DNA of 36,837 nt from an uncultured Chthonomonas sp. Its GTDB lineage: Bacteria; Armatimonadota; Chthonomonadetes; Chthonomonadales; Chthonomonadaceae. Under the pieces are notes generated by a model. It worked only from the letters and a program-made list of their open reading frames with translations, did not search any database and was not told the DNA's origin. Shown piece by piece: positions 3,561 through 33,436 of this stretch. A program made the position numbers and the translations under genes. Positions within the stretch are counted from its first letter, which is position 1, and each line of letters opens with the position of its first letter. The DNA lies in contig CAIONQ010000049.1 of the NCBI GenBank assembly GCA_903859705.1, positions 1-36,837 of the forward strand, written 5' to 3'.

Positions 3561-3612
3561 CGCCCGGGGATTCGTGCAGAATCCAATGATTTTGAACAAG
3601 TTCAGGAACTCA

Positions 3613-6782: not shown

Positions 6783-6794
6783 ACATTACCGGCC
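6774..6794. terminator. Hairpin between convergent csaB and EamA genes, enclosing both stop codons
   Basis: GGCCGGT (6774-6780) pairs perfectly with ACCGGCC (6788-6794) around the 7-base loop gaacatt. The csaB stop (6780-6782) and the EamA stop (6786-6788) both fall at the loop. There is no U-tract on either side, so whether it terminates transcription or stabilises the mRNA ends is open. Confidence 0.5.
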
Positions 6795-7238
6795 CACAGC
6801 GCGCCGTATGCTCTCTTGCACGGAAGGCAGTGTCAGCATGGCTCCGGTGAGGATCATTGCTGCACCCAGCCATGTGAGTTTTGAAACCTTCTCGTGAAGA
6901 AATGTTACTCCCAGCAGCATAGCAACGATAAAGCTGAGTTTATCGATGGGTGCCACGTGTGAAATTGGCCCGGCCTTTAGGGCTGCAAAGTAGCACAGCC
7001 AGGATAGCCCGGTAGCCATCCCGGATAGAACTAAGAAGGTCCAGTTCTTACTCGATAGCGTGCCTATATTCTTAAGTTGCCCCTGTGCCAGCACAATGCC
7101 AAAAGCAAATACCAGTATAACGCCTGTGCGTACAAAGGTGGCAAGGTTTGAGTTAACATTGGCGGTGCCCAGTTTTGCCAGCACGGCCGTTAGCCCTGCA
7201 AACAGCGCTGAAAGCAGCGCAAAAGCCGTCCAGTTCAT
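6786..7238 (-). CDS. Half-size EamA/DMT-family transporter
   Basis: A 150-residue protein with five hydrophobic segments and a single EamA domain (N-terminal WTAFALLSALFAGLTAVLAK, C-terminal FLHEKVSKLTWLGAAMILTGAMLT). Full-length drug/metabolite transporters have two such domains; single-domain members are known and are thought to function as dimers in the inner membrane. The substrate cannot be predicted. A purine-rich AAAGGGGG lies about 12 bases before the ATG. It is convergent with csaB, only 3 bp apart, and divergent from the outer-membrane protein gene. Confidence 0.85.
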   Translation of the reverse strand: MNWTAFALLSALFAGLTAVLAKLGTANVNSNLATFVRTGVILVFAFGIVLAQGQLKNIGTLSSKNWTFLVLSGMATGLSWLCYFAALKAGPISHVAPIDKLSFIVAMLLGVTFLHEKVSKLTWLGAAMILTGAMLTLPSVQESIRRAVGR

Positions 7239-7568
7239 AATGAGCGAGGCCCCCTTTCAGCCCCATTGGTGTTGGCACAAATGTGCCGTTCAGAATCTTC
7301 TGCTGTAAGTTGCTCCTACGCATGCACCACTTCCTGCATTTGCAGGGGCCAATTAGGGGTTAAGGGAGCGCTGAATCGTGTCTCAGTGAGAAGGATTTCA
7401 CATGCCCTTTGGCGGAAAAAGCAGTGTGGTATACTGGAAATGTCAGGTGGGCGCATGCGTGCATCGCACCGTCACCCTGTTGCCCCCCGCTCACTTCCGT
7501 GTCAGTCACAGCCTGGCTGTTTCTGTATCTATGCCAAGGCTCTGGCCATTTCGTTGACGGTGGAGTTT
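7239..7568. other. Divergent intergenic region of 330 bp
   Basis: No gene is evident. It contains a small palindrome (CCTGC...GCAGG, about 7334-7347) and a candidate promoter at 7408-7435. An open reading frame runs through it in frame with the downstream gene, but it lacks a good start signal and does not read like a protein. Confidence 0.5.
7408..7435 (+). promoter_or_regulatory. Candidate promoter for the outer-membrane protein gene
   Basis: A good -10 box TATACT (7430-7435) with a weak -35 (TTTGGC, 7408-7413) and a 16-bp spacer. The implied leader to the ATG at 7569 is about 127 nt. The -10 is better than the -35, so this is only tentative. Confidence 0.35.
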
Positions 7569-10500
7569 ATGCTTCGTTCGTACGCTCGTCGCGCATTTCT
7601 TGTAGCCGCACTATCTGCTCTGGAACCCATGGCCGCGTCTCGCGCTACTGGTGACGACACCATTCGCCAGGTGCAAGTTCCTAACGCCCCTGCCGCGCCT
7701 GCATCGCAGAGCCCGGCATTGGATGATGGGCCAACCCTTTTCGATGTATTATCCCGCATTCAAACTCCCAACCCAACCGTAACAGGTGTCGGTACCGGTG
7801 CTGGCATGCCTGCTGCCGAACAGGCTGCAGCCTCGGCAGTGCGCCGCCCGCTTGGCCCTGTTCCGGGTATATCGCTGGCTGGCACAGAGGCCGCGGCGGC
7901 GCGGAAGAAGCATGGCGGGTTTCTTGGTGCTGTTTCTGATTGGTTCAGCAGCATAGAAACGCGCACTGGCACGCGGATTAAAGCAACCGGTTACAGCACG
8001 CTTTCGTTTTCTAATCAGAATATCTCTGGCTCCGATTCGGCTTTTCAGAGTGATCAATACTATGGGCGTGGCTCCGGTGGTGTATACAACGATACCGATC
8101 TTACTGTTGATGCCACCCTGTTTAAGTGGTTTCACTATCAAACGCGCGTTACAAACTCCCTGTTTAAAAACCCCAACGATAACCGGGTAAAGCTGGATTA
8201 CAACACGCCAGCCACCCGTGTTGAGTTTGGTGACATAAATGTAAACTTCCAGGGCAACTCGCTAATAGATTTTAGCCGATACCTGCATGGTGTACAGATC
8301 CGGGACGTTTGGTCGCCAAAACTATCAACAACAGTTCTGTATTCTAAAACCAAGGCCACCACACAAACGCTGGTAATTAACGGCAACAACTCCAGCGGCC
8401 CCTATTATGTGTACGCCGGGCAGATTGTGGATGGAAGCGCCCAGGTTCGTATTGACAATCAGGTGCTAACCGCGGGTACGGATTACACTCTGGATACCTT
8501 TACGGGCCAGCTTAACTTCCTGAGAAACCGCATCGTTCTCCAGACTTCCACCATTGCGGTTTCCTTTGAATCGCTGGGATATAACTCCAGCCAGGGCTCC
8601 ATATATGGTGCACGTGCAGAGGTAACGGCTAAAAAAGGCTGGACACTTGGCACAACCTTTATTCAGCAAGAGGCTCAGGGAACTACCGGTAACCAGATGC
8701 ATACCGAGCAGTTCAATGGGTATGGCATTCCAACGTTCTACTACACCTCGGCACCGATCGATCTCTCTAAGCCGATGATCGTTACCGTGGGAGGGCAGCC
8801 GCTTACTAAAGGCCAGTACACGGTAGATACGTCTACATCAACCACTAACAGAATCTTCCTGACAGTAGCGGTTGATGCCAGCACGATTGTTCAGATTCAG
8901 TATGTGCCGTTTAACAGCAGTGTAACGCCCGGCAGCCGCAGCATTGTTGGCCTGGATACGCGTTACACCATGGGCAAGCTGGGCACCATCACCCTGGAAT
9001 CGGCAATGTCTGGCTTGAGCCTTACCGGTGCCACAGTAAATGGCAACGCCTGGCTGGCGCGTGCAGACCTGGTGCCAGCAAAAAATCTGCATACAACGAT
9101 CACCTTAAAATCTGTTAGCCCAACCTTCTCATCCATTCAGAGCCCGGGATTCTCGCAAAACGAAAAATCGATTCAGCTTGCGGGTGATTACTCCCCTATT
9201 AGCAGGCTTAAGCTGAATTTTGATGTTCAGCACTCCATGCGGCCAACCTATTCTGGAACAAACCAGTTTACGCTGAGCACGGCCGGAGACGATGCCTTTA
9301 ACCAGTACAGCTTGGGTGCAAACTATTCGCTTTCCAAGAGCTCTAATATTGCCCTTACGCGTAGCGATATCAACACCAAGTATGCTGCGGGCGGAAATAG
9401 CACCACAAGCAGCAACGCGCTAACCTATAGCCAGACTATTAAGGCCATTAGCGTAGACCTTTCGCTGAACAGCAATGCCTCAAATGTAAACTCGAGCGCT
9501 GCGCTGTTGGGCCTTACTACAGGCACAACGGGCAGCACCGGATATATAAGCGATTCTTCCAGCCTGGGTGGGCGCCTTGGTTTAAGGTGGCAGGCAAACA
9601 AGGCACTAAACTTTAGTGGTGCGTTATCGCTAAACAAGATTTCCAATACCAGCCAGGGTACCAGCACCGGATCCACAGCTAAAGATTCCCAGATATCCGC
9701 GAGCTACACCGGCATACGCAAGGTGCGCTTGAACTGGTCGCTGGATCTTTCCGATACGGGCAGCGCAGCGATATCTACAAACGGAACAACAACAACAACC
9801 GGTTCGGCTGGCAGCAAGGCCATTCTTGCCCCCTACTCATCGCTAGCTGCAGCGCCCGATATCAGCATTGCAAGCTCCATTCGCAACGCACTAAACAGTA
9901 TGAATCGGGCCTCGGCCACCACATCAACAGGCACTGGTGCTGGAACACTGTTTGGAGGCGGCATCAACAGCGGCCTGGGTGGGTACGGTAACCAGAACAA
10001 CGTTATAAACAACACCACAGGCTTTACAAGCTTTGGTGGCCGGAGCCTTACAAACAGGCTTCAGGCCGACGTACAGCCGCGTAAAGATGTGCAGGTAGGT
10101 GTTAGCCTGGATAGTTCATCCAGCCTGGGAGATTACCAGTACAACAGTAACCGTACAGGCCTTGGCCTTAACACCAACTGGCAACTTAGCGACCGCATGC
10201 AGCTTTCTGGCAGTTTTAATATGCAGCACATGGTGTATACCGGTTCGTTCGGTGGCACGGATAGCAGAACGGCCCTGTTCTCGTTTCAGGGCAAGCCTTT
10301 TGGTGGCAAGCTTGGTACCCAGTTTGGCTTCCAGATGATGCATACAAGCAGTGCATTCAATACATCAGCAACAAGCACAACCACATCGTTAACCAACACC
10401 AGCAACGATCTGAGTTCGCTTTCTGCACGGCTGGACTATCCAATATCGCAGAAACAAACGGTATTTGTAGAATTGCTGAAGTCTACCACTGCGGGCTACC

Positions 10501-10670
10501 TATCTAACACCGAATCAGACGTACGCTTTGGGCTGGATTATGCGATTACACGAACGCTTAAGTTCTCTTTTGGATGGCAGATATTGAGCCACGTTTACAA
10601 CGACGCCGCCAATTCAAACCTGAACTACCACGCCAGCAACCTGCTTGCACAGTTTGGCGTACACTTTTAA
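7569..10670 (+). CDS. Large outer-membrane beta-barrel protein (candidate)
   Basis: A 1033-residue exported protein. The N-terminus (MLRSYARRAFLVAALSAL) reads as a signal peptide, and the ATG at 7569 is preceded by GGTGGAG; upstream in-frame starts lack this. After a Pro/Ala-rich linker the protein is almost entirely alternating, Ser/Thr/Asn-rich beta strands. The last residue is Phe at the end of an alternating strand (LLAQFGVHF), the usual C-terminal signal recognised by the BAM outer-membrane insertion machinery. A DYTLDTFTGQLNFL motif around residues 300-315 resembles the turn seen in SprA-like surface proteins. Low-complexity Gly/Ser/Thr stretches occur in the C-terminal third. I cannot name a specific function; porin, export channel or surface scaffold all remain possible. 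It is followed by a small HTH gene that may be translationally coupled to it. Confidence 0.7.
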   Translation: MLRSYARRAFLVAALSALEPMAASRATGDDTIRQVQVPNAPAAPASQSPALDDGPTLFDVLSRIQTPNPTVTGVGTGAGMPAAEQAAASAVRRPLGPVPGISLAGTEAAAARKKHGGFLGAVSDWFSSIETRTGTRIKATGYSTLSFSNQNISGSDSAFQSDQYYGRGSGGVYNDTDLTVDATLFKWFHYQTRVTNSLFKNPNDNRVKLDYNTPATRVEFGDINVNFQGNSLIDFSRYLHGVQIRDVWSPKLSTTVLYSKTKATTQTLVINGNNSSGPYYVYAGQIVDGSAQVRIDNQVLTAGTDYTLDTFTGQLNFLRNRIVLQTSTIAVSFESLGYNSSQGSIYGARAEVTAKKGWTLGTTFIQQEAQGTTGNQMHTEQFNGYGIPTFYYTSAPIDLSKPMIVTVGGQPLTKGQYTVDTSTSTTNRIFLTVAVDASTIVQIQYVPFNSSVTPGSRSIVGLDTRYTMGKLGTITLESAMSGLSLTGATVNGNAWLARADLVPAKNLHTTITLKSVSPTFSSIQSPGFSQNEKSIQLAGDYSPISRLKLNFDVQHSMRPTYSGTNQFTLSTAGDDAFNQYSLGANYSLSKSSNIALTRSDINTKYAAGGNSTTSSNALTYSQTIKAISVDLSLNSNASNVNSSAALLGLTTGTTGSTGYISDSSSLGGRLGLRWQANKALNFSGALSLNKISNTSQGTSTGSTAKDSQISASYTGIRKVRLNWSLDLSDTGSAAISTNGTTTTTGSAGSKAILAPYSSLAAAPDISIASSIRNALNSMNRASATTSTGTGAGTLFGGGINSGLGGYGNQNNVINNTTGFTSFGGRSLTNRLQADVQPRKDVQVGVSLDSSSSLGDYQYNSNRTGLGLNTNWQLSDRMQLSGSFNMQHMVYTGSFGGTDSRTALFSFQGKPFGGKLGTQFGFQMMHTSSAFNTSATSTTTSLTNTSNDLSSLSARLDYPISQKQTVFVELLKSTTAGYLSNTESDVRFGLDYAITRTLKFSFGWQILSHVYNDAANSNLNYHASNLLAQFGVHF

Positions 10671-21084: not shown

Positions 21085-21837
21085 TTAGTGTTCGCCTTCG
21101 ATTTCGCCAACCTTGATGTCAAGATCTGCGCGCTCTTCAATTTTGGCAACTTTGCCATCGCGGATCCACACAACACGATCAGAAACATCTACCATCTTAT
21201 AATCGTGGGTAGCTGAGATAATGGTAACGCCTTCGTTCTTATTAAGCTCACGCAATAGTTCAATAATCTCGGTACCGGTTTTCAAATCCAGGTTGCCAGT
21301 GGGCTCATCTGCAAGAACAATGCTTGGGCGGTTGGCAAGCGAACGTGCGATTGCCACACGTTGTTGCTGACCTCCTGAGAGCTCTGATGGCCGGTGGTGC
21401 AGCCGATGGCCGAGGCCAACTTTGTTAAGCATCTCGATACCGCGCTCGATGCCCTCATCGGTTGGCATACCTGCGAAGATTGTTGGCAGCGTTACATTTT
21501 CCAACGCAGTCATAACGGGAATCAGGTTGTAAGATTGGAAGATGTAGCCAATGGTGTGGCAGCGCAGGTAGGCAAGCTCCGAGGCATCCAACTGAGCCAT
21601 GTCTACATCGTTAATAAACACTGAGCCAGAGGATGGTTTATCAAGGCCACCAATTGCGTTAAACAGCGTGGACTTACCCGAGCCGGATGGACCCATGATT
21701 GAGATGTACTCACCACGGATTATATCAAGATCCACCCCATTAAGCGCCCGCAGCGTTTCACCACCCATGGTGAACTCTTTAACGAGCCCTTTGGTTCTCA
21801 CCACATATTCGTTTGCGGGTTTGCTTGCAGCTGTCAT
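21085..21837 (-). CDS. LolD/MacB-type ABC transporter ATP-binding protein
   Basis: A 250-residue ATPase. Walker A GPSGSGKST is at residues 49-57, Q-loop FQSYNLIPVMTALENV near 100, signature LSGGQQQR at 153-160, Walker B IVLADEPTGNLD near 173-184 and H-loop SATHD near 208-212. The GNLD after Walker B and the MTALENV segment are typical of the LolD/MacB/FtsE branch, which drives FtsX-type permeases in mechanotransmission rather than classic import. Its partners are very probably the short FtsX permease just upstream (21906-22541) and the giant M28-like/FtsX protein at the head of the operon. The 68-bp gap upstream holds a small hairpin (21875-21895). Confidence 0.95.
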   Translation of the reverse strand: MTAASKPANEYVVRTKGLVKEFTMGGETLRALNGVDLDIIRGEYISIMGPSGSGKSTLFNAIGGLDKPSSGSVFINDVDMAQLDASELAYLRCHTIGYIFQSYNLIPVMTALENVTLPTIFAGMPTDEGIERGIEMLNKVGLGHRLHHRPSELSGGQQQRVAIARSLANRPSIVLADEPTGNLDLKTGTEIIELLRELNKNEGVTIISATHDYKMVDVSDRVVWIRDGKVAKIEERADLDIKVGEIEGEH

Positions 21838-21905: not shown

Positions 21906-22541
21906 CTAAACGGTTGTGCGCAACGCCACAGCCGGTGGCATTCTGGCGGCATTCACTGCCGGCGGTATGGCTGCAAGCAGGGTAATTACCACACCAATTG
22001 TGGTAGAGATTACCGCCTGTTTGAGCGATGCCGAAAGTACATGGGCTGTGAATACATGCGGCCCTTCGGTAACCAGATGCACCACACACACTATAAACCA
22101 GCCTGAAAACCAGCCGAGTACGGATGCAACCAACCCCATGAGGCCTGCTTCTATAAAGAAAAGGGTTACGATGAACCGGTTAAGTGCACCGAGGCACTTC
22201 ATAGTGCCGATTTCTCGGAAGCGCTCTGTAACGGCCATTAGCATGGAGTTTGTGATGCCTACAGCACAAACGAGCAGCGCCATGATGGCCAGCCACTCCT
22301 GCCTATGCCCGGCTGCTATAACTGCAGGGTCGTGCGGATCCCCGGACATCGGGAACAGGCCCGAAGTTTTTACGGAGCTGTAGAAAGCGATGCCAAGGCA
22401 CACACCGGCTGCTGTAATAACCGAACGCAGCAAGCGAATGCGGATGCTTTTGAGGCTGATTTCCCATGCCTTGCTGAAAGGCAGGTGTATCTGTCTCTGG
22501 ATGGCCGGAGATGCGGCCTGTGTACCGGTTTCTGACTTCAT
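21906..22541 (-). CDS. Minimal FtsX-type ABC permease without ectodomain
   Basis: A 211-residue membrane protein with the four spans of a MacB/LolC/FtsX permease. The cytoplasmic N-terminus (PFSKAWEISLKSIRIRLLRSV) matches the family's coupling helix before TM1. The later NSMLMAVTERFREIGTMKCLGA segment is the conserved FtsX motif that contacts the ATPase. The periplasmic MacB_PCD domain, about 200 residues in normal members, is reduced to about 20 residues between TM1 and TM2. It lies directly upstream of the ATPase gene. The ectodomain function may be supplied by the giant FtsX protein of the same operon, giving an asymmetric pair; that is inference. Confidence 0.88.
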   Translation of the reverse strand: MKSETGTQAASPAIQRQIHLPFSKAWEISLKSIRIRLLRSVITAAGVCLGIAFYSSVKTSGLFPMSGDPHDPAVIAAGHRQEWLAIMALLVCAVGITNSMLMAVTERFREIGTMKCLGALNRFIVTLFFIEAGLMGLVASVLGWFSGWFIVCVVHLVTEGPHVFTAHVLSASLKQAVISTTIGVVITLLAAIPPAVNAARMPPAVALRTTV

Positions 22542-22558: not shown

Positions 22559-23023
22559 TCATGACTTCTTGACCTTCTTGTAGAACCCGATGTAGTTCTT
22601 CTCATGCAGCATCTGCAGAAACATCGTAACCGAGACCTCTGCCTCGCGGCGGTTCATCTTGTACTCTTTGCCGGTTTTCTGAACGATGGCCTCTATGGTG
22701 TTGGTGCCATCACACAGTTCCCACACAAAGCCGCCGACCTCATCAAGCTCTACTCTGCGCTCCGTTGGTGCCCGCATAACGCGAGCAAGCACACGGGTTG
22801 GCCCTTTATGCTCCAGCGGTACCGTGAGCATGGTTTTGCCAGGCTCTGAAGTTTCCCAGGTAAGTGCCGAGTTTCTTGCCGGGCGCAGTGTAAGCGCACC
22901 CTGACGATCCATCTCTGGCGGTGTTACTTTCAGAAACGGCAGGTACTTGCTGGCAAAGGTGAGCGCCTTCATCCGCAGTTTTGGGTTCAGTGACAGTGGC
23001 ATTTTCCCGCTACCTGATCCCAT
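22559..23023 (-). CDS. PqqD-like protein
   Basis: A 154-residue protein whose C-terminal 80 residues fit the PqqD fold: VELDEVGGFVWELCDGTNTIEAIV, then YKMNRREAEVSVTMFLQMLHEKNYIG. PqqD and related RRE domains bind peptide substrates for modifying enzymes, classically with a radical SAM protein. No radical SAM enzyme and no PQQ gene is in the window, so a role in PQQ synthesis is not supported. Stand-alone PqqD-like proteins also occur in transport operons. The ATG at 23023 follows GGAAGG closely and makes the gene overlap the preceding one by 37 bp; a later start at 23002 or 22972 is possible. It sits 17 bp before the short permease. Confidence 0.8.
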   Translation of the reverse strand: MGSGSGKMPLSLNPKLRMKALTFASKYLPFLKVTPPEMDRQGALTLRPARNSALTWETSEPGKTMLTVPLEHKGPTRVLARVMRAPTERRVELDEVGGFVWELCDGTNTIEAIVQKTGKEYKMNRREAEVSVTMFLQMLHEKNYIGFYKKVKKS

Positions 23024-24060
23024 AAACCTTCCGTTTTTGCATTGTGCAGCACCTGCACACTGAAAAGCTTGTTCTGTTCCTCACAATGCCAGGCGCCGCC
23101 TGTGTACCTGGTAGGGAAAGGGCGCATGGAGCCCTTGCACTCCTTCATAGCAGTTAGCCTGGCGGCCAACGGCAATACGCCGGTTGCCACTATGGCTTTG
23201 TGCCCGTTTACCTCGGCGTTTGAGTGAGTCATTTTGGCGGTAGCACATTGCGCATTGCGCTCAAACCACTCTTGTAGTTTAAAGCGCTTGAGAGCAACAT
23301 TGGCCAGCCCCCACCTATCGATCAGTATCCGTTCGGCACCGCGCGCAAATGCCAGATGCAGATGGCCAGACATTACACGGTGTGCAGCCAGATGAAACTC
23401 AGTTGGCACCTCTGCCTGCAGATCGTACAGTGCCCACAGATCGTTGCCATCTACACTGTGATCCTGAAAGGTTGCAAACAGCTGCGAGGCCACGGCGCCA
23501 ATCTGATTATGGTCTTTCTGCAGGCCAACAACCTGCGCCATAACCACCCTGTTACAGGTGCTGCATCGCCAGATCTTGCCCTGGCCACGGCCTGCGCCGG
23601 TCCAGGTAAAGCCCATGGCAATGCGCTCATCGTTGAGGCCTTCCGCCTTCTCGGGGCGGGTTTGGCACTCGAACGGGGCACGCCCGCTTTTCTTAGCTTC
23701 CTTCGCCGCATCTTTCAGGATGCGATCCAGAGTTTGCCTCAGATCTGTTTTTGGTACCGGGGGTGCCGGCCGTTTAAGCAGCTTACGAAAGTAAGGTGCA
23801 AACATATAGTACGGTGTTGGCGGCCCTTGCTCCGGCTTTGCCGCATTGCTCCAGCGTACCTGAACGCTCATGGTGGCTGTGCCCGGCGAATCTACCCGCA
23901 CGTAACCATTATCTCTATCCAGAGAAAACCCGGTTACGTTCCATTCTGGCGGCAGTGAGAACCGAACTCCTTGCCAGCCCACCACGGTTTTGCCGGGCAG
24001 CACTGCCGTTGCTTCTGTGCTAGCCACTGGTTTATCTGATTTGTTGGTGTTACCTGCCAT
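22987..24060 (-). CDS. Unknown Cys-containing protein with two similar halves
   Basis: A 357-residue soluble protein that I cannot assign to a family. Two segments look like copies of one module: residues about 29-70 (GWQGVRFSLPPEW followed by GYVRVDSPG and MSVQVRW) and about 208-255 (LYDLQAEVPTEF followed by GHLHLAFARG and ILIDRW). Each is followed by a Cys-containing strand: CSTC at 166-169 and HCEEQNKLF at about 325-333. The protein ends CHCH. The paired cysteines and terminal Cys/His suggest a metal or disulfide site. It lies 8 bp after the H-X9-DG gene and overlaps the PqqD-like gene by 37 bp, so those two products may work together. No Shine-Dalgarno box is obvious. Confidence 0.7.
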   Translation of the reverse strand: MAGNTNKSDKPVASTEATAVLPGKTVVGWQGVRFSLPPEWNVTGFSLDRDNGYVRVDSPGTATMSVQVRWSNAAKPEQGPPTPYYMFAPYFRKLLKRPAPPVPKTDLRQTLDRILKDAAKEAKKSGRAPFECQTRPEKAEGLNDERIAMGFTWTGAGRGQGKIWRCSTCNRVVMAQVVGLQKDHNQIGAVASQLFATFQDHSVDGNDLWALYDLQAEVPTEFHLAAHRVMSGHLHLAFARGAERILIDRWGLANVALKRFKLQEWFERNAQCATAKMTHSNAEVNGHKAIVATGVLPLAARLTAMKECKGSMRPFPTRYTGGAWHCEEQNKLFSVQVLHNAKTEGLWDQVAGKCHCH

Positions 24061-24068
24061 ACGATGAG

Positions 24069-24896
24069 CTATTTGCCTTTGCCGGGATCGGCCCCCGGAG
24101 CAAGGGCCTCCACATGCCCATCACAGTACAAAACGTTGTTGTGTCCGCTGTGGCGGCCACTTGTTGGCAGGCTCTTCACAGCATCGTGCGCGCTGCCCGG
24201 CAGCGTGCTGGAATCATAAACCAGCGGTGTATGGGCGGCATCCGGCATTTCTGACAGCTTCTTGCCGTTTAACTGTTTGTTTGCCAGCGCCTCATTGTAT
24301 GCGTAGCCAAACTTATCATCGTGCTGGTTGGAAACCTGCGGGCAGTGAAACCACTCATTCTTTTGCACGCGTGATGCGATTTCGTCGTTCTCCATCCACT
24401 TTTCCGCAGGTGGCAACGATCCGTTGCTCTCTGCGTACTTATCGAATGCAAAGTAGAGCGCCTTCAGGTTATCTGCACAGCCCTTCTGCTCGGATGATTC
24501 TGCCGCGACTTTTGGCCGCGTAAGCCCCATAGTTTCTGCCAGATCTGCAACCTTGTGGTTGAGCGCATAAAATGCGCCAAGATCCGCCACTATCAGCACC
24601 AGAGCCACGGGCCAGGCAGCCTTCAGATTCTTGCCTGTAGAGGAGGCGAGGGATCCGCCTACAACACCTACAGCCGGGCCGAAAGCCAGGAATATGCCTT
24701 CAGCAATGACGATAGGGCCAATTTTTGCCTGAAAGGCAATGCCTGCCCCCAGAGCAGCTACACACCATATAGCCACCAGGGCAATGAGAGCAGTGCGTGC
24801 CGATTTGGAAAGGCTGGCTCTAGCCGCTGCACCGGCTCCCACCGAGAGCAGTGCCGAAACAGCCAGTATTATCCTGAGTATCTTCTCGATATCCAT
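24069..24896 (-). CDS. Membrane-anchored H-X9-DG (DUF1559-like) protein
   Basis: A 275-residue protein. Residues 1-115 form four hydrophobic segments (about 5-25, 35-53, 60-80 and 95-112). The C-terminal 140 residues resemble the prepilin-processing-associated H-X9-DG module: CADNLKALYFAFDKYAESNG, then FHCPQ, GYAYNEAL, TPLVYDSS, and finally His249 followed nine residues later by Asp-Gly (259-260) in GHNNVLYCDGHVEAL. That module normally follows a single type IV prepilin N-helix. Here the prepilin signal is absent and a four-span membrane domain takes its place. Function unknown; possibly a display or sensing module. It lies 37 bp after the OPT transporter gene, with a hairpin between them. 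Confidence 0.75.
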   Translation of the reverse strand: MDIEKILRIILAVSALLSVGAGAAARASLSKSARTALIALVAIWCVAALGAGIAFQAKIGPIVIAEGIFLAFGPAVGVVGGSLASSTGKNLKAAWPVALVLIVADLGAFYALNHKVADLAETMGLTRPKVAAESSEQKGCADNLKALYFAFDKYAESNGSLPPAEKWMENDEIASRVQKNEWFHCPQVSNQHDDKFGYAYNEALANKQLNGKKLSEMPDAAHTPLVYDSSTLPGSAHDAVKSLPTSGRHSGHNNVLYCDGHVEALAPGADPGKGK

Positions 24897-24925: not shown

Positions 24926-24947
24926 ACCTGCCGTTAGAAAGGCAGGT
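24926..24947 (-). other. Hairpin enclosing the OPT-gene stop codon
   Basis: ACCTGCC (24926-24932) pairs perfectly with GGCAGGT (24941-24947). The 8-base loop contains the stop codon of the OPT transporter (24934-24936). No T-run follows, so it is more likely an mRNA-processing or stability element inside the operon than a terminator. Confidence 0.5.
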
Positions 24948-26982
24948 AGTTAACAGATTTTGCGATTAGCGCTAGAGCGATGGCAGACATCGCTATCAGC
25001 CCGGTTCCGCAGGCAAATCCTGCAAGCAGAACGGGTGTGTACATGCGCCAGTTATCGACTCCGAATCTTCTGGCAAAGTACTTCTTGCCGAGCCATGCGC
25101 CCAGGAAGGTTGGGATTACATCGTGCGGGAAGGCACCTGTACCCCCAATGAACCCGTAGAACGTGAGCATCGGTAAGTTGAAGGTTTTGAAGAATGTAAA
25201 CAGCAGCAATCCGGCCGCGATGCCACCACCAATACGTGGGAAGCTGATGGCTTCACGCACCCAGGTGATGCTACCATCCTTGCGGTTAATGGTGTTAAAC
25301 AGCGCCTGCATAGTGGCACTTATCGGCCAGAACTGCGAAGCATACGGATGCTGTGAAGATGGTATCTGGCTGGTATGCCAGAAGAAAGCCCAGAATATAA
25401 AGCTTGCAGGCAGGATGATGGCAAGCATCAGCAGCTCTACCTTAACAATGCTTACAAACTTGGTTCCGGTTAGCTCCACTTCACGGAAGCGCTGGGCTAC
25501 ACCACCAAAATCGTACAGTGGGATTGGTGCATACCAGATATCAGCATACTGGTAGCCAGATTTCATGATCGAAACTTCTCGCAGGTATGGGAACGAAACA
25601 CCACCACCTGTAAGGCCGATCATTCTGGCAGAAACATAGGAGTTGATGGGCGACCATATGAGGCCGTAGAACACAAGTATCCAGATAGGGAAGTTGTGAT
25701 CTTCGTGCAGCTTACTGCCATCCATATTCAACAGAAACCTGGTTAGGCCAATGTAGAAGGTGGTTACTGTGAGCCAGGTTACCAGCGGAACCCACAAGGG
25801 CAGATCTCCGCGCCCTTTTGGCACAGTAATCTTCAGGCCCCTATCCTTCATCTGCTTGCGCAGTGCGCTAACAGATTGGAAAACACTGAACAGGCCTATT
25901 AGAGCTACCGAGATCTGAAGCCCGATACCAACAGAGGTCCAGAACTTGATGTTGATGGCGTTGTTGGTGTAGATGGCATTCATGCCACGGGTCCAACCCG
26001 AACCATCGGTGCCACCGAATGCGCCGAAGTGGTACAGGATGGGGGCAAGGCCAACGCGGCAAAGTAGCGAGCCAATGAGCGAGCCCTGCACGATGGGGTA
26101 CGGAATTACAAACCCCGTAAGCACCTTTGTGAGGTCGCCAGAAATACCAACCAGGGCACCGGGCAGAATAGTTTCTGTATTGGTGGTGAGATCGAAGAAC
26201 GGAATTGGTATTAGCTGGAATGCCTTACCAAACACAACGCTGGTAAATACGGGAACGGCGATATAGAAAAAGCCGAAGATAAGCCCGATTACACTGCCGG
26301 TTGAGAACACCTTCCAGCGCCAGCTCTCCTCCTTGTTTGCGGCTTCGGCAAGGGCAGTTGCGCCACTGGCGGCAACAGGGGCCATTGGGAAGGGCAAACG
26401 TTCGATATCCGAAGTAACGCGGAACAGGAAGTAACCGGCACTGAGCGAGTTAAGCTTGCCAAGCACCTGCGTTATCAACAGAAGCGTGATTGGCAAGAAC
26501 CACGCCGAATCAAAGAAAGTGCGGTGCAGCAGTGCAGGTGAACCTGCGGGAGGCACAACCCAATGCGGCACCTGGCTGGCTACAATTGCGGCCTGTGGAG
26601 ATTGAACGAAGTACTGATTCCAGATCAGTTCTCCGAAGGGGCCACCAGAGATACCACGATCTGCAGCCAGGCCTGTGAGGCCAGCCGCGATGTAGTACAG
26701 AATGTAGATTTCCTGCCGCTTCATTGGCAGGAACGAGCGGCGCATGATTTCGGCAAAGAGTACGATGGTTACCCACTCTGCCGCGGGGCCAAGGCCCTGC
26801 CCGGCAACGAGGCCAAGATACAGAGCGCCAGGTAGCATGATGAAGCCGACGAACAATGCGCCAATAACTGTTTTGGCACTAAAACCATCCTCAAATTGAG
26901 GCTGGTGTCCCTGTTCGCCGTCTTCGGTAGATTCCGCCTCTACCTGAGCTCGTATTTGCGCGTACTCGCTGTCGGTCGCCAC
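24934..26982 (-). CDS. OPT-family (oligopeptide transporter-like) membrane protein
   Basis: A 682-residue polytopic protein with about 14-16 hydrophobic segments and a charged cytoplasmic N-terminus. Gly-rich loops such as DRGISGGPFGELIWNQYF, FGAFGGTDGSG and FIGGTGAFPHDVIPTFLG fit the OPT superfamily, in particular the bacterial branch annotated with DUF6785/DUF6784. Characterised OPT members import small peptides or metal chelates by proton coupling; no substrate is known for this branch. The start is GTG with GAGAGGG upstream. It lies 35 bp after the LolA-TlpA gene. An OPT transporter within an FtsX/LolD-type operon is unexpected and may supply a peptide or metal ligand to the system. Confidence 0.85.
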   Translation of the reverse strand: MATDSEYAQIRAQVEAESTEDGEQGHQPQFEDGFSAKTVIGALFVGFIMLPGALYLGLVAGQGLGPAAEWVTIVLFAEIMRRSFLPMKRQEIYILYYIAAGLTGLAADRGISGGPFGELIWNQYFVQSPQAAIVASQVPHWVVPPAGSPALLHRTFFDSAWFLPITLLLITQVLGKLNSLSAGYFLFRVTSDIERLPFPMAPVAASGATALAEAANKEESWRWKVFSTGSVIGLIFGFFYIAVPVFTSVVFGKAFQLIPIPFFDLTTNTETILPGALVGISGDLTKVLTGFVIPYPIVQGSLIGSLLCRVGLAPILYHFGAFGGTDGSGWTRGMNAIYTNNAINIKFWTSVGIGLQISVALIGLFSVFQSVSALRKQMKDRGLKITVPKGRGDLPLWVPLVTWLTVTTFYIGLTRFLLNMDGSKLHEDHNFPIWILVFYGLIWSPINSYVSARMIGLTGGGVSFPYLREVSIMKSGYQYADIWYAPIPLYDFGGVAQRFREVELTGTKFVSIVKVELLMLAIILPASFIFWAFFWHTSQIPSSQHPYASQFWPISATMQALFNTINRKDGSITWVREAISFPRIGGGIAAGLLLFTFFKTFNLPMLTFYGFIGGTGAFPHDVIPTFLGAWLGKKYFARRFGVDNWRMYTPVLLAGFACGTGLIAMSAIALALIAKSVNYLPF

Positions 26983-27017: not shown

Positions 27018-28217
27018 TTAGCGCACTCCTGCTTTCGCAAGGGCTGCTCGTATGCCCTGCTCATCAAATCCCATAAACCGCGCCAGGATCTTTCCAGACG
27101 GGTCCAGGACATAGTTGGTTGGTATTGCCTGGATGTGGTACTGTTCGGAGACCTTTTCTCCACCCAGCACGGCATGCATCCCCAGCCTATCTTGCTTCCA
27201 GATTTTTTCTACTGTTCCGCGGTCGTCTCCGAGGTTCACCGAGTAGATATCCAGACCTTTGCCTTTTAGCTGCGCAAGCATCCGCGATAGTTGCGGCAGC
27301 TCTTCGCGGCATGGGCCGCAGCCTGCGTTCCAGAAATTAACCAGCGTAACTCGCCCGGCCCGGCAAGCATAGTTTAGCGACATCGTGCCGCCATCCAGCT
27401 GCGGAAGCGTAAACACAGGTGCGGCACTGCCTACGGGCAGTAACCCCTGTTCTTCGGAGCCAGTGCCACTTGATGGCGTATTTCGGCTGGCGGCTACCTC
27501 TTGCACAGAGCGTGCGTTCTTGGGCAGCCTGTAGGCCGCAAGCGCAGCAGGTGTGGCTGCATTCACAACCACGCGGGTTATCCTGCTCTCGCGAGTAACG
27601 GTTGCATCGCCCTGCACTGCCTTCTGGCTGTAGCCCCGCAGCAGATCATCTGGCCCGATAAATACTTTCCAGATACTTCCACTATCACCCAGCACCTGCA
27701 CTACACGGCATGGCACGCCGGAAAGTGTTGCTGTGGCAATTAGCCTGGCCCTGTGCCCGAAACGCATACGGTCCAGAAGATCCGGGTTAAAGAAGGCTGC
27801 AGCCTCCAACAGCTCACAATCTCTGGTTATGTTTCCGCCCGCTACATCAACGGGCTCTCGCGCATACTGGTTATCGGTTGTGCTGTACGTAAGCAGCAAC
27901 TTACCATCCGCATGCGCCACCACTGTTCCGCTGGTACCCTCACGCGTGAGCTCTATATGGCCCCAGTTCGGTTTGCGAAGGGCTATATGGCCCTTTACGG
28001 TGCGAATATCGGAGCCCTGGAGTGTGAAATCGGCCTGCAGAGAGTTGGCACGCCTTTCGGCGGCAATGCACTTCTCTAACATGGCGTCCGCCGCTGCATC
28101 CGCATTGGCCCTACTCGGCACACCCAGCATGGCTGCTGATACAGTGCAGTAGAGCACTGTTACAGTTAACGATGCGGATCGAACACACCCCCATACCGAT
28201 GCCTTTGACACCCCCAT
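27018..28217 (-). CDS. LolA-fold/TlpA-thioredoxin fusion, periplasmic
   Basis: A 399-residue exported protein. A signal peptide (about 1-39, ending in SRANA) is followed by a LolA/DUF2092-type beta domain (about 42-235): AAERRANSLQADFTLQG, then strands ending with VVNAATPAALAAYRLP. LolA-fold domains bind acyl chains and ferry lipoproteins or lipids through the periplasm. After a Ser/Gly linker, residues 260-399 are a TlpA/ResA-type thioredoxin with active site CGPC (300-303) and cis-Pro at 366 (AIPTNYV). It could deliver lipidated cargo and at the same time reduce or isomerise its disulfides. It lies 59 bp after the giant M28-like/FtsX gene. The thioredoxin call is certain; the LolA-fold call rests on pattern and is less so. 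Confidence 0.85.
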   Translation of the reverse strand: MGVSKASVWGCVRSASLTVTVLYCTVSAAMLGVPSRANADAAADAMLEKCIAAERRANSLQADFTLQGSDIRTVKGHIALRKPNWGHIELTREGTSGTVVAHADGKLLLTYSTTDNQYAREPVDVAGGNITRDCELLEAAAFFNPDLLDRMRFGHRARLIATATLSGVPCRVVQVLGDSGSIWKVFIGPDDLLRGYSQKAVQGDATVTRESRITRVVVNAATPAALAAYRLPKNARSVQEVAASRNTPSSGTGSEEQGLLPVGSAAPVFTLPQLDGGTMSLNYACRAGRVTLVNFWNAGCGPCREELPQLSRMLAQLKGKGLDIYSVNLGDDRGTVEKIWKQDRLGMHAVLGGEKVSEQYHIQAIPTNYVLDPSGKILARFMGFDEQGIRAALAKAGVR

Positions 28218-28261: not shown

Positions 28262-28289
28262 GCCGGCATTAACTCATCAGGATGCCGGC
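28262..28289 (-). other. Hairpin enclosing the stop codon of the giant FtsX gene
   Basis: GCCGGCAT (28262-28269) pairs perfectly with ATGCCGGC (28282-28289). The 12-base loop holds the stop codon (28277-28279). No T-run follows it in the direction of transcription, and the operon continues 45 bp later. Confidence 0.5.
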
Positions 28290-31200
28290 GACGGCTCCAG
28301 TCCTGCGCCTTCCGGCGCATCCTTCTCTCCGCTAAGGTACCTCTCTCGCTCCGCCTGCTTAAGGGTTCGCCAGATAAGGAACTGCTTTCGCAGCGTGTTT
28401 ACAAACCGCCTGTTAACGCGTTTCCAGTTCGAGATGTCTCCCGATTCTCTATCCACAACCAGGCGGATATCGTACACACCTTCCGTGGAGGTTGGTATCG
28501 TTTCTATGGCAACCTTTTGAGATACGCCGAGGTCAAATGGTGCCAGCCAGCACATGCAGCCAACCCGATAAGCTTTACCGAATTCTGCCTGATACTCTTC
28601 AGATAGTACGCCCTGAGTAACGAAATCTCCAATGCTGTACTCTTCGTAGGCGGCAAACCATTCATGCAGGAAGGAGTTCATACCGCTTGCCTGCTCACCG
28701 GTTACCGCAAACGGCAACGGGATTATCCAGTGGTCGCCATCCGGATCCGGAACCTTCCAGTTACGATCGATGGCAGGAGTTGCCACTTCGGAAGCGCGGC
28801 GCGCCGGGTAGATGGTGGATAGTAGCACCACGGCAACAACCACCAGGGTTGTCATAACGGCAGATACACTGGAGAAGTTCAGGTACAGATCTGGCAGCCA
28901 GCCGGTCCACACCAGCACCTTACTTGTCAGCTGCCCCAGCAAATACCCGGATACAGAACCAAGAATGGCATACACCATGGCTTCGGCCATAAACAGCATG
29001 CCAATATGCGAGGGCGATAGGCCAATACTGGAGAAGATGCTGATCTCTTTAACGCGCTCCAGCACCGAGTTGAGCATGGTGTTGAGAACTATAAGAGATG
29101 CAATCAGGATTGGCAGGAACACCAGTTCCAGGCCCCGTGAGCTGGTTGCAGCTATCGAGGAGTACCGCTCTACATGCCCGCGATCTTTAGGATCTGGCGC
29201 GTTCGCATTGGTGATCTCGCCGGCATACAGGTTAAGGCCCAGGCGGTGCATCAGGGGGTTAAGGCGCTGAAGTACCTGAGCCCTATCGGCAAAATCGATG
29301 GCGATGGAGCGCAGTTCTGCACCCATGTTGGTTGCGGTTTGATAGGGTACGAAGAACACCTGATCAGGCTCAAGGTGGGTGTACTCTTTAAAGCCCTGCT
29401 CGCCGGCAGATCCACCGCCGCTACCCTTAGACATCTTGTTCATCGCAACAAAGTCTACAGGAGTCATCGGCTCGTTATCGAGATCCGCCATCTCCTTAAG
29501 CTTCTGCGAGTTAACTATGCCAATAACCAGATACGGCACACCGCTGTAGTTTACGCGGGCTTTGCCTACATCCGCGGTATCTATACGTAGCGCCGCAGCC
29601 ACAGAATCTGGCAGGATCATGGTGTACGTATCACCAGGCTCAAACCAGCGGCCAACCGGCTGCCCGGTTTTTTCATCGGTAAGTAGCGCATCTTGCGGAC
29701 GCGTAATCTTCGCTTCCGCGGCACTCAGGCCAACCATGGCTCTGGCGTCGTAGCTCTTATCTGCACGGCTGAGGGTAAGGAACGATTGCTCGCCCATCTG
29801 CGTGCCGTAGAACCATGCACGTGGTGCAACCGAATAGGTGCGTGCATATTCATCAGATAACAGGCGATATGCCGGTTCCTGCAGCGGATCCCACATCGCG
29901 GTGCGGATCATGATACCGTTGTATCTGGGACCATGGTCGCTCGGAGCTGGTACCTGGTTAAACCGAATGGTCTGCACAACCGAGGTAAACGATAGCACCG
30001 TAAAGGTAAGCAGCACCAGGGTAACGCACGTAAGGAAGGTGCGCATTTTGCGCCGGCGCATGTTTGAGATGCCCAGATTGAAGGCTGCAATGGCAAGCGA
30101 GAACTTGGCAACATCTGCCTTGTGCACGCCTCCAGAGCTCTGATTCATCTGTTTGAGCTGCTCTTCAAACTTGCCCGCAATTAGCCCGATAACGATAATC
30201 GAAAGTGCCGCCATGATGAAGGCCAGCAGAACAATTATCGGGTTCATGGTGATATCGAATGCCGGGTGGATGAACCGGAACACCATGAAGATTGCAAGGA
30301 AGATGAGGCCTGCCACGCTGAGCTGGCGCTTAAGATCGAAGAAGCCGAACAGCAGGCGCTCGCCAAAGTAGGCGAAAGGCATCAGCAATGCGAGGTAGAA
30401 CAGAACGCCCTGAACTACATCGGTTGCGATCTGCTGAACGTCCGGATAGGCCCTGCTCTCGTAGCCCCACGCTGCGCGGGAATCGGCATCAAACCGTTCC
30501 CAGTTCAGCGCTTCTTTATCTTTTACAGCCTTTGCAATGGAGTCTTTGGCAAGTTTGTGCAATCCGGGCACGCCCTCGTTAGAATCCATATCTAGGATTC
30601 TGTAGCGTGCCAGGCGGCGCATACGGAAATCGTCCAGACGCCACATGTCTTCTGCAACATGCAGCGCCGTATCGTAAATCGCACCAGATTTTGCAATCTC
30701 GCGTCCCGCATCAAACTTAACCTGTGCTATATCACCAAGCAAATCGGCATTCTGCTGATCTCTTGGATCACCGGCAACCAGGTAGCCCTCGCCCTCAGGC
30801 GTGCCCCCTTCTGCCTTCGGGTTTTTCGGATCAAAGTGATAATCCGAGTTCACCAGAAGCAGGCGGGTTGCGCCCGGGCCGCTATTCATGGCAATCTTCA
30901 GGCGTGTGCCCGGCGCAGAGAACAGTACCGCTACATCTTCTACATAAGAGCCAACCAGCGATGGATCCTGAGGATCGATGGCATAACCAAACATACGTGG
31001 TTCGCCGTTGGTTTCTCCATCGTACACATCGATGCCCGTAAGTGCCCTCAGCGACTGCTGATCTACGAGATCATACACCGCAGTTGGCACACACCGAAAC
31101 ACAATTATCGGTGTTTCTTTAACCGCTGTAGTTACCATCACGTCCAGCGGAATATACTTGGCTCCGGTGCTGCCCAGATCCGGCGCATAGTCTATCTCGC

Positions 31201-33436
31201 CACGATGTGGGTTTGCAGCAGCTGTGCCATCTGCATTCTTAACGGTATCGGCGTTATCTACATGGTAAGCGGCAAGCATGGATGGCTTATTGGTGCCGTA
31301 CGCGGTTAGTGGCGCTATCCCATGAAACGCAAAATAGTTATTGGGTAGTACCTGATTGCCAGCCTCATCCACCGCATTGCCGGTGGTGGGATCGATTATC
31401 AGGGAACCATCTGGCGCACGTTTAAGCACGGTATGGGTTTCGGGCGCGGTCCATTGTGCCTGTTGCACCATATTGCCGCGCACACCCATAAAGCTCTTGT
31501 TTCGGTTGCGAACTACCACCAGCGAATCTGCCAGCCGGGGATCCGGGCTGGAGATAAACGATTTGCGCGGGTTAAACATCTGAACCCGGCCCTGGATGGT
31601 GGCAAACCCGCCCTGCAACGCCATGCGCGACCAGTTGGACGGATCCGTAATCGGCATGCGTTGCGAGTTCACGTCGCCTGGCGCATTGTCATCGGTAACA
31701 ATATGCCACATCAAACAGGAAAGCAGCTTTACTTGCTGCGCCAGGTTTGCTGTGTTTACACGGTCTACTGTATCAAACGGTGTATCCACGTAGGAGCGGC
31801 TATCATCCGTTGTTGCAAACGTGATGCCTTCGCCGCCGGCCATGGTTACGGCCTCGGAATCAAAGGCGGGTTTGCCCGGTATATAGTTTCGCCAGTTTTT
31901 GCCATCTACAGGGTTAACGCCATCGTTAAAATAGCGCTTGGAGTTGATACCCCATACCGCGCCAACCTTTTCGGCATTTTCGCGGCAAACACGGGCAATA
32001 TCACTGAATTTGCCCTGAATATCCTCACGGAAATCGTAGAACCAGCCCTTGTAGAAAACTCCGAAAGACTGGGAGTGGCTGGTCATATCCAACCCACACC
32101 ACAGGTATATGGTGGGTGGCTTGCGCAGTGTGGCATCGTGCGGGCGGGAGTAGAACACTCCGTTAACCGAAAGCACAATTACAGCCAGCAGAACAGCCCC
32201 CACCGATGCTGCATGCACGCGGGAGCCAGAAGCGGTTTTTCGTGCAAGCGATCGAATTGCGAGCGCTATTGAGCCCAGGAGTAAGATGCCAAGCCAAATG
32301 GAAGCGCTACCGGATTTCTCTTTTGTGAGCGAGGCTTCCACCACGCTGGGCGGGGTCCAGGAATCGATGTGGCGATCAACATACTCACGTATGCCCTGCA
32401 GAGCCTGAAAGTGCGCACTGGTGGCCACAAACATCACGGAGCGAGCCGGCGGATGTGCTTTAAACTGGCGAGCCTGCTCCAGCATGGCCGCGATACCGCA
32501 AGCAGATTCGGCACCCGGTGCGAGGCCAGGAACTACAGATATTGCATCGTAGTAAGACTGCACCACAATAAGTTGGCTCTTTAGCTTTGGATCTGTGCCC
32601 TCTATAAACCCTGTAATGTTGCGAGCGCGGCGTGTTTGCCACGGCATATCACAGTTTAGAGTAACCTGCGGAGGGGTGCCACCTGCCATGCAAAGGGCCA
32701 TTAGCGGCGCAGCATCCTCCATCTTCATGTAGAAGCGTGGAATGGCAATGGGAATGGAGATAAACTTGGCTTCGGCCTCACCGCGCATCGATGTTTGCGG
32801 GGCAACGAAGATAACCGCTTTAGCACCGAGGCGAGGTGCATTCATCCATTCGGCGGCACAGTTAAAGTCAACCATTACCACCGCGCCATCAACGTTTTTG
32901 CCGTTAAAATTGCGCAGGCGGCCATCTCTAACGTAAATTAGCGGGGCGGTTAGTCCATCTTTAGGAAGTGTGGGAGTGCGAACAAGGTTTGGCCACAGCG
33001 GATACATCCGAAGAGATGTATCTGCTGCACCGGAGGCCAGGTTCACATGGATACGTGCGCCAAGCTCAGGCTTTTCTACGCCACGATCATAGGGAACAGT
33101 TACATCGAAATCGTCGTGAGTAATTCCAGAGAGGCCAAGCTCTTTAAACTGCGATTCTACGTAATCTGCAGCACGCGCGTCATCTGGATACCCCGCGATA
33201 CGAGATGTCATGCCGCCAAGCGTGTGAATGGTGCGCTCAAGCCCGGCTTGATCCACACTTTTCTGAAGCTCGCGATACATCTCCTGGCGTTTAGCCTTAG
33301 CCGCATCGCTTTTCTGATCCGCACGGGAAGGGTTTACACAGGTGAGGAGCCCGATTACGGCGGAGATAAGCAGGTAGGTGGAAATGCGCCGACCGTTAGA
33401 ACACAGCAGGCTTTTTCCGTTGCACAACATGTACAC
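28277..33436 (-). CDS. Giant M28-peptidase-like/FtsX permease fusion
   Basis: A 1719-residue envelope protein. A signal or anchor segment (about 19-33) leads into an M28 aminopeptidase-like domain (about 55-575). Two membrane helices (about 379-397 and 409-427) interrupt it. A beta-rich extracytoplasmic region (about 600-940) follows, then three membrane spans (about 1007-1090). From about 1108 there is a complete FtsX/MacB permease: coupling helix FNLGISNMRRRKMRTFLT, TM at 1133-1155, MacB_PCD-like ectodomain, TMs near 1437-1460, 1480-1501 and 1525-1543, with LERVKEISIFSSIGLSPSHIG between them. A cytoplasmic tail of about 165 residues ends it. In the M28 domain the zinc-binding HYD motif is YYD (295-297) and the bridging Asp is Glu310. 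The catalytic Glu pair is replaced around 341-345 and the late His near 550 is missing, so peptidase activity is unlikely. The start is GTG, or an ATG two codons later, after GAAGGGAA. It is the first gene of the operon. Confidence 0.9.
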   Translation of the reverse strand: MYMLCNGKSLLCSNGRRISTYLLISAVIGLLTCVNPSRADQKSDAAKAKRQEMYRELQKSVDQAGLERTIHTLGGMTSRIAGYPDDARAADYVESQFKELGLSGITHDDFDVTVPYDRGVEKPELGARIHVNLASGAADTSLRMYPLWPNLVRTPTLPKDGLTAPLIYVRDGRLRNFNGKNVDGAVVMVDFNCAAEWMNAPRLGAKAVIFVAPQTSMRGEAEAKFISIPIAIPRFYMKMEDAAPLMALCMAGGTPPQVTLNCDMPWQTRRARNITGFIEGTDPKLKSQLIVVQSYYDAISVVPGLAPGAESACGIAAMLEQARQFKAHPPARSVMFVATSAHFQALQGIREYVDRHIDSWTPPSVVEASLTKEKSGSASIWLGILLLGSIALAIRSLARKTASGSRVHAASVGAVLLAVIVLSVNGVFYSRPHDATLRKPPTIYLWCGLDMTSHSQSFGVFYKGWFYDFREDIQGKFSDIARVCRENAEKVGAVWGINSKRYFNDGVNPVDGKNWRNYIPGKPAFDSEAVTMAGGEGITFATTDDSRSYVDTPFDTVDRVNTANLAQQVKLLSCLMWHIVTDDNAPGDVNSQRMPITDPSNWSRMALQGGFATIQGRVQMFNPRKSFISSPDPRLADSLVVVRNRNKSFMGVRGNMVQQAQWTAPETHTVLKRAPDGSLIIDPTTGNAVDEAGNQVLPNNYFAFHGIAPLTAYGTNKPSMLAAYHVDNADTVKNADGTAAANPHRGEIDYAPDLGSTGAKYIPLDVMVTTAVKETPIIVFRCVPTAVYDLVDQQSLRALTGIDVYDGETNGEPRMFGYAIDPQDPSLVGSYVEDVAVLFSAPGTRLKIAMNSGPGATRLLLVNSDYHFDPKNPKAEGGTPEGEGYLVAGDPRDQQNADLLGDIAQVKFDAGREIAKSGAIYDTALHVAEDMWRLDDFRMRRLARYRILDMDSNEGVPGLHKLAKDSIAKAVKDKEALNWERFDADSRAAWGYESRAYPDVQQIATDVVQGVLFYLALLMPFAYFGERLLFGFFDLKRQLSVAGLIFLAIFMVFRFIHPAFDITMNPIIVLLAFIMAALSIIVIGLIAGKFEEQLKQMNQSSGGVHKADVAKFSLAIAAFNLGISNMRRRKMRTFLTCVTLVLLTFTVLSFTSVVQTIRFNQVPAPSDHGPRYNGIMIRTAMWDPLQEPAYRLLSDEYARTYSVAPRAWFYGTQMGEQSFLTLSRADKSYDARAMVGLSAAEAKITRPQDALLTDEKTGQPVGRWFEPGDTYTMILPDSVAAALRIDTADVGKARVNYSGVPYLVIGIVNSQKLKEMADLDNEPMTPVDFVAMNKMSKGSGGGSAGEQGFKEYTHLEPDQVFFVPYQTATNMGAELRSIAIDFADRAQVLQRLNPLMHRLGLNLYAGEITNANAPDPKDRGHVERYSSIAATSSRGLELVFLPILIASLIVLNTMLNSVLERVKEISIFSSIGLSPSHIGMLFMAEAMVYAILGSVSGYLLGQLTSKVLVWTGWLPDLYLNFSSVSAVMTTLVVVAVVLLSTIYPARRASEVATPAIDRNWKVPDPDGDHWIIPLPFAVTGEQASGMNSFLHEWFAAYEEYSIGDFVTQGVLSEEYQAEFGKAYRVGCMCWLAPFDLGVSQKVAIETIPTSTEGVYDIRLVVDRESGDISNWKRVNRRFVNTLRKQFLIWRTLKQAERERYLSGEKDAPEGAGLEPSPAS

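Follow-up and report, generated by a model that had tools for sequence, protein, structure and literature searches.

A predicted M28-fold domain with a remodelled pocket on a giant FtsX-type permease

What does a peptidase-like domain do on a giant membrane permease when the residues of the peptidase active site have been replaced? The question is raised by a gene of an uncultured Chthonomonas sp. (Armatimonadota; NCBI GenBank assembly GCA_903859705.1, contig CAIONQ010000049.1) that lies in the window, the whole 36,837-nucleotide stretch of DNA analysed here. An earlier note, made from the letters alone, had read its product as a pseudopeptidase on a mechanotransmitting permease. We examined the anatomy of the gene, the predicted fold of its ectodomain, the conservation of its pocket and the genes that accompany it.

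Anatomy of the giant permease

The giant is encoded by a single open reading frame on the minus strand; its length of 1719 residues agrees with the earlier note. The proposed fusion of an M28-like domain to an FtsX permease is borne out by Pfam matches to Peptidase_M28 at residues 273-355 (E 1e-9) and to FtsX (PF02687) at residues 1440-1549 (E 9e-16). Hydropathy places an N-terminal hydrophobic stretch at residues 18-36, and the remaining parts are as follows.

28277..33436, minus strand: giant permease gene, a pseudo-M28 ectodomain plus an FtsX-type permease; one open reading frame, 1719 aa, GTG start at 33436
31685..33295, minus strand: predicted M28-fold domain with a PA-like insert, residues 48-584, split by a membrane hairpin (AlphaFold2 model and PDB comparison)
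32153..32299, minus strand: transmembrane hairpin, residues 380-428 (hydropathy), found in 19 of 59 homologues
30854..31603, minus strand: beta-rich domain, residues 612-861, without family assignment (secondary structure of the AlphaFold2 model)
30182..30430, minus strand: about three membrane helices, residues 1003-1085, ahead of the FtsX core (hydropathy)
28811..30031, minus strand: FtsX core, with TM1 at residues 1136-1154, a periplasmic loop at 1155-1435 and TM2-4 at 1436-1542 (PF02687 and hydropathy)
28280..28810, minus strand: conserved C-terminal tail, residues 1543-1719 (conserved columns)

Membrane topology was inferred from hydropathy, by which the C-terminal tail (1543-1719) is probably cytosolic. 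An FtsX domain (PF02687) and four transmembrane helices, the first two separated by a periplasmic domain, give the giant the layout of a type VII ABC permease. Its scores miss both relevant NCBIfam cut-offs, at 29.9 vs 473 bits for LolC and 25.1 vs 966 for MacB.

Two membrane helices, at residues 380-398 and 410-428, do lie inside the M28 domain, as described earlier. They do not define the protein, since the hairpin is present in 19 of 59 homologues (18 of Chthonomonadales type plus the homologue L054) and absent in the other 40; it is a lineage-specific extra, and we dropped it as a key feature of the giant.

Giants of the Poribacteria phylum (L113-L126) are longer, at ~2340-2560 aa where the reading frame is complete. 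The giant gene of the Fimbriimonadales genome KatS3mg016 (L066, 7830-12528) is broken over several frames, in a pattern like that of sequencing errors.

The ectodomain is predicted to have the M28 fold

An AlphaFold2 model of residues 45-998, computed from a 50-sequence alignment, reached a mean pLDDT of 92 and a pTM of 0.90. The top Foldseek matches to this model were 2ek8 (E 5e-23) and 6hc6 (E 2e-21), and the best VIA-align match was 1amp, with a Z score of 29.8 and 2.6 A over 270 residues. The M28 fold, which the earlier note had claimed from sequence, is secure as a prediction because the model and its PDB matches by both programs support it. At the profile level, the PA family matches 19 of 50 homologues of the giant, and the nicastrin large-lobe profile (PF05450) matches 9 of 50 weakly (best E 0.001). 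Nicalin and TfR1 also turn up in a profile search with the ectodomain, and TfR1 is among its structural matches as well.

Replaced residues at the canonical M28 site

The aminopeptidases YwaD (2ek8) and AAP (1amp) share the fold and the PA-type insert with the giant, whereas in the giant the catalytic Glu and three of the five metal-site residues are of other types. We numbered the metal sites 1 to 5 after AAP, as in PMC7522609. Tyr295 stands at site 1 (AAP His97), Glu310 at site 2, the bridging Asp (Asp117), Phe343 at site 3 (Glu152) and Asp551 at site 5, the last His ligand (His256); at site 4 Asp179 survives as Asp450, and His342 takes the place of the general base, Glu151. The positions lie as follows.

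32546..32554, minus strand: YYD, residues 295-297, at the HxD motif; His replaced by Tyr, Asp kept in 59 of 59 homologues (alignments)
32507..32509, minus strand: Glu310 at the bridging Asp; Glu in 45, Asp in 13 and Gln in 1 of 59 homologues (alignment)
32408..32413, minus strand: His342-Phe343 at the Glu-Glu pair; H342 invariant (alignments)
32087..32089, minus strand: Asp450 at 1amp Asp179; kept and invariant (alignments)
31772..31786, minus strand: DTPFD, residues 551-555; Asp551 at the last His ligand (Asp in 57 of 59, Asn in 2), Asp555 invariant (profile and multiple alignments)

Most of the earlier reading of this site survived closer alignment. The change of HYD to YYD was seen at residues 295-297, that of the bridging Asp to Glu at residue 310, and the catalytic Glu pair is gone, with His-Phe at 342-343. 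The framework motifs GAESACGIAAMLE and DTPFDTVD, said to survive, are both present. The last His had been matched to Val550, which is off by one: Asp551 holds that position in a profile alignment to 2ek8, which sets 'lvdTpfDt' on 'wyhTPnDt', and in an alignment that includes the genome's own M28 enzymes. Two features go beyond the earlier account, namely the retention of Asp179 as D450 and an invariant His in place of the catalytic Glu. Intact zinc ligands elsewhere in the domain were not apparent in the sequences.

An M28 peptidase requires His, Asp, Glu, Asp and His as ligands together with a catalytic Glu, where the giant has Y295, E310, F343, D450, D551 and H342. Because the canonical ligands and the catalytic Glu are missing, we class the giant as an M28 homologue and do not file it as an M28 peptidase. 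Seven M28 enzymes are encoded elsewhere in this genome. HxD is present in every one of them, and the D, EE, D and H motifs are for the most part intact; two of the enzymes (L110 and L111) deviate or align loosely at some later motifs. Judged from the alignments, loss of the canonical metal site and catalytic Glu in the giant is well supported.

The replaced residues are themselves conserved

We aligned 59 homologues, with a minimum pairwise identity over the domain of 28% and a median of 46%; most genomes in the comparison are metagenome-assembled. The altered residues were highly conserved: D297, H342, D450 and D555 are invariant in all 59, an acid stands at position 310 in 58, Tyr or Phe at 295 in 56, and Phe at 343 in 48. 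A further 14 homologues, 13 from the GTDB phylum holding a Candidatus Poribacteria genome and one (L128) from Armatimonadota, repeat YYD, GAE/GAD/GAQ, H-F, D and DTP. The catalytic Glu is absent from all 59 aligned homologues and from the 14 further ones, so that the proposal of a non-canonical M28 domain on a mechanotransmitting-type permease stands as far as sequence can carry it. HYD, with the only His at position 295, occurs in a single long-branched paralogue, L074 (G097:C341, open reading frame 4955-10174), which has Asn at the last-His position; in a quick permease tree it sits on a long branch beside other long branches, and its placement is ambiguous.

A decaying, pseudogene-like domain with no selected function is hardly credible on these counts. 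One divergent paralogue in G100 (L084, 3306-8381) has lost the whole motif set, as decay would have it, but it is the sole such case, the reading frame of the giant is intact throughout a phylum, and the invariance of the pocket in 59 + 14 homologues led us to rule this explanation out. The L084 locus still has a carrier gene, an FtsX gene and two ABC genes adjoining. Since the pocket positions hold a new set of conserved residues, the 'lost active site' of the earlier note is half the story: the canonical residues are indeed replaced, but the pocket appears from its sequence to be remodelled rather than decayed, and it may yet form a catalytic or metal site of a non-standard kind.

Conservation is centred on the site. 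By entropy, H342 and D450 rank at zero and D551 falls in the top 6% of the domain, followed by Y295 (17%), E310 (23%) and F343 (30%). Six columns that include the neighbouring D297 and D555 are more conserved than the remaining domain (Mann-Whitney p 9e-5), a value that is indicative only because the sequences are related and two of the six columns were picked from the same alignment. We consider it improbable that the M28 domain is a mere structural scaffold or a dimer interface of the permease, with pocket residues kept for folding: scaffolding alone does not predict the zero entropy of H342 and D450 and the rank of D551, and Y295, E310 and F343 are less extreme. Such a role would fit the survival of the framework motifs along with the pocket, and TfR1, one of the structural matches, is a non-enzyme with this fold.

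The main rival is a rewired single-metal enzyme. Three acidic positions and a His left in the pocket make a one-metal or otherwise non-standard enzyme possible, in which E310, D450 and D551 would hold one metal, H342 would act as general base, and a substrate resembling a peptide or a lipid, supplied by the permease, would undergo hydrolysis or acyl transfer. The near-complete conservation of these acids and of H342 speaks for it. PDB entry 2anp is, by its title, a mutant Aeromonas aminopeptidase that is functional with Glu151 changed to His, exactly the H342 position, which counsels caution against taking H342 as proof of inactivity. A case has also been made that GPAA1, with changes at sites 1 and 5, is an M28 enzyme working with a single zinc (PMC7522609); its kept and replaced site positions are not those of the giant. 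A type VII ABC system with a hydrolase partner, YbbAP-TesA, is known. Both His ligands are missing, however, the catalytic Glu occurs in no homologue checked, and site 3, among the two strongest zinc partners in molecular dynamics (PMC7522609), is Phe in 48 of 59 homologues. We regard such an enzyme as doubtful, if less so than a scaffold.

Our preferred reading, to which we assign a probability of about 0.5, is that the giant serves as the large permease subunit in an ABC transporter of type VII (MacB/LolC/FtsX-like), and that its fused M28-fold domain works as a receptor or adaptor without catalysis. In these bacteria a predicted M28 peptidase fold has become a fixed, non-canonical part of an FtsX-type engine, a parallel to EnvC on FtsEX, which derives from another peptidase family.

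An operon conserved in two phyla

The giant heads an operon, and its partner genes lie downstream on the same strand.

27018..28217, minus strand: thioredoxin-fold protein (AhpC-TSA/ResA-like), a variable operon member
24934..26982, minus strand: membrane carrier, 682 aa, predicted Yellow-stripe-1 (OPT/YSL) fold (AlphaFold2 and fold comparison)
24069..24896, minus strand: 275 aa protein with a DUF1559-like H-x9-DG tail (sub-threshold match), at Chthonomonadales-type loci only
22987..24060, minus strand: 357 aa protein with a near-invariant CxxC and a C-terminal CH, without a Pfam family or an obvious export signal
22559..23023, minus strand: PqqD-domain protein (PF05402, 50.7 bits vs a cut-off of 23.4)
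21906..22541, minus strand: small FtsX permease, 211 aa, with a short TM1-TM2 loop (PF02687, E 1e-16)
21085..21837, minus strand: ABC ATPase closest to LolD/MacB (TIGR02211, E 1e-70, 237.5 bits, under the cut-off of 307.75)

A cognate LolD/MacB-type ATPase, as expected of a type VII ABC system, is thus encoded in the same operon, the pairing being by gene context. By eye, the first 230 residues of the thioredoxin-fold protein (27018-28217, minus strand) resemble a LolA/LppX-type domain, near the LolD-like ATPase.

By hand count, 26 of the 30 Armatimonadota-type loci whose flanks are long enough have the gene for the 682-aa carrier after the giant; the remaining four are of Fimbriimonadales type, and two of those genomes have the carrier gene elsewhere, unlinked. 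Loci of the Poribacteria phylum repeat the order seen in Armatimonadota: giant, carrier, 357-aa-type protein, PqqD, ATPase. When the small-FtsX profile was run against their open reading frames it matched only giants, and no small FtsX was found at these loci. Across 101 genomes, giant and carrier were concordant, both present or both absent, in 98 (Fisher p 1e-12, which overstates independence because the genomes share ancestry). Of the three discordant genomes, two (G004 and G085) have assemblies that are fragmented in one case and incomplete in the other; in G092 the carrier match is strong and that of the giant weak. Scanning genome contigs with six peptide patterns returned Armatimonadota-type genomes and one Poribacteria genome. 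In the open-licence literature searched, no paper on M28 with FtsX or an FtsX-like permease, or on PqqD with OPT and FtsX, describes the system.

The carrier has a predicted OPT/YS1 fold

The AlphaFold2 model of the carrier has a pLDDT of 76 and matches barley Yellow stripe 1 (7wst) over its whole length, with a Z score of 22.3 and an rmsd of 4.0 over 559 residues; the next unrelated structure reaches Z 4.4, and Foldseek gives an E of 1e-10 for the same match. On this model the carrier is of the OPT/YS1 fold. Sequence resemblance is weak by comparison: TIGR00728 (OPT_sfam) matches 2 of 16 family members, with a best E of 0.003, the 682-aa carrier has no Pfam match, OPT included, and sequence searches found no relative of solved structure at E 10, the match having come by fold only.

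As is established for these families, OPT/YSL carriers transport either peptides or chelated metals, and PqqD domains are peptide binders. Because an OPT/YS1-fold carrier and a PqqD protein accompany the giant, the gene context favours a ligand that is peptide- or chelate-like, a guess from the partners; the earlier note had conjectured a peptide or lipoprotein for the ectodomain.

Proposed mechanism and relation to known systems

The recurrence of the same partner genes, including the YS1/OPT-shaped carrier, in two phyla indicates that the giant probably belongs to an undescribed machine for handling peptides or chelates. In Armatimonadota, it would pair with the small FtsX in a heterodimer driven by the LolD-like ATPase. 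This heterodimer is not universal, since the search of the Poribacteria loci gave no small FtsX; there the giant would probably homodimerise. The remodelled pocket may bind a ligand resembling a peptide or a chelate and leave it uncut, and ATP-driven movement would open or close the ectodomain; the ligand could then be handed to the OPT/YS1-fold carrier, or the carrier could be gated by the movement. More tentatively, and with less confidence than we place in the receptor or adaptor reading, we propose that Armatimonadota and Poribacteria share an ancient, undescribed machine, in which a type VII ABC system with a peptidase-derived receptor energises or gates an OPT/YS1-fold carrier and the PqqD protein handles a peptide on the cytosolic side. 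Gene order and co-occurrence tie the ABC engine to the carrier, which offers a concrete, testable case of a primary pump coupled to a secondary carrier, within a multi-gene system kept in two phyla and without description in the open-licence literature searched.

EnvC, which FtsEX drives and whose LytM domain is devoid of catalytic residues (PMC7668044), is by analogy a functional precedent for the giant: in FtsEX-EnvC, too, an ATPase-driven FtsX-type permease acts through a catalytically dead peptidase fold (PMC7668044). EnvC, however, is a separate protein of the LytM/M23 family, whereas the M28 domain described here is part of the permease chain itself, and the operon adds an OPT/YS1-fold carrier, a PqqD protein and a small FtsX. 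YbbAP-TesA, a type VII ABC system that presents ligands to a periplasmic hydrolase (PMC12646458), likewise pairs such an engine with a periplasmic hydrolase-fold partner, but TesA is an active, separate esterase, unlike the fused M28 domain with its canonical site replaced. LolCDE and MacB are closest by profile to the permease core and to the ATPase described here, yet the giant scores far under the LolC/LolE and MacB family cut-offs. GPAA1, nicastrin, nicalin and TfR1 share an M28 fold with an altered site on a membrane protein or complex; these proteins are eukaryotic, and none is fused to an ABC permease.

Other genes in the window

Two further loci of the window, both on the plus strand, drew our attention. 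A 1134-aa protein at 7266-10670 is repeat-rich and beta-barrel-like, with a weak match to SprA/Sov (TIGR04189, E 2.4e-9, far under the cut-off). At 3574-6782, a DUF5693 membrane protein adjoins a polysaccharide pyruvyl transferase, and the pair recalls S-layer anchoring genes.
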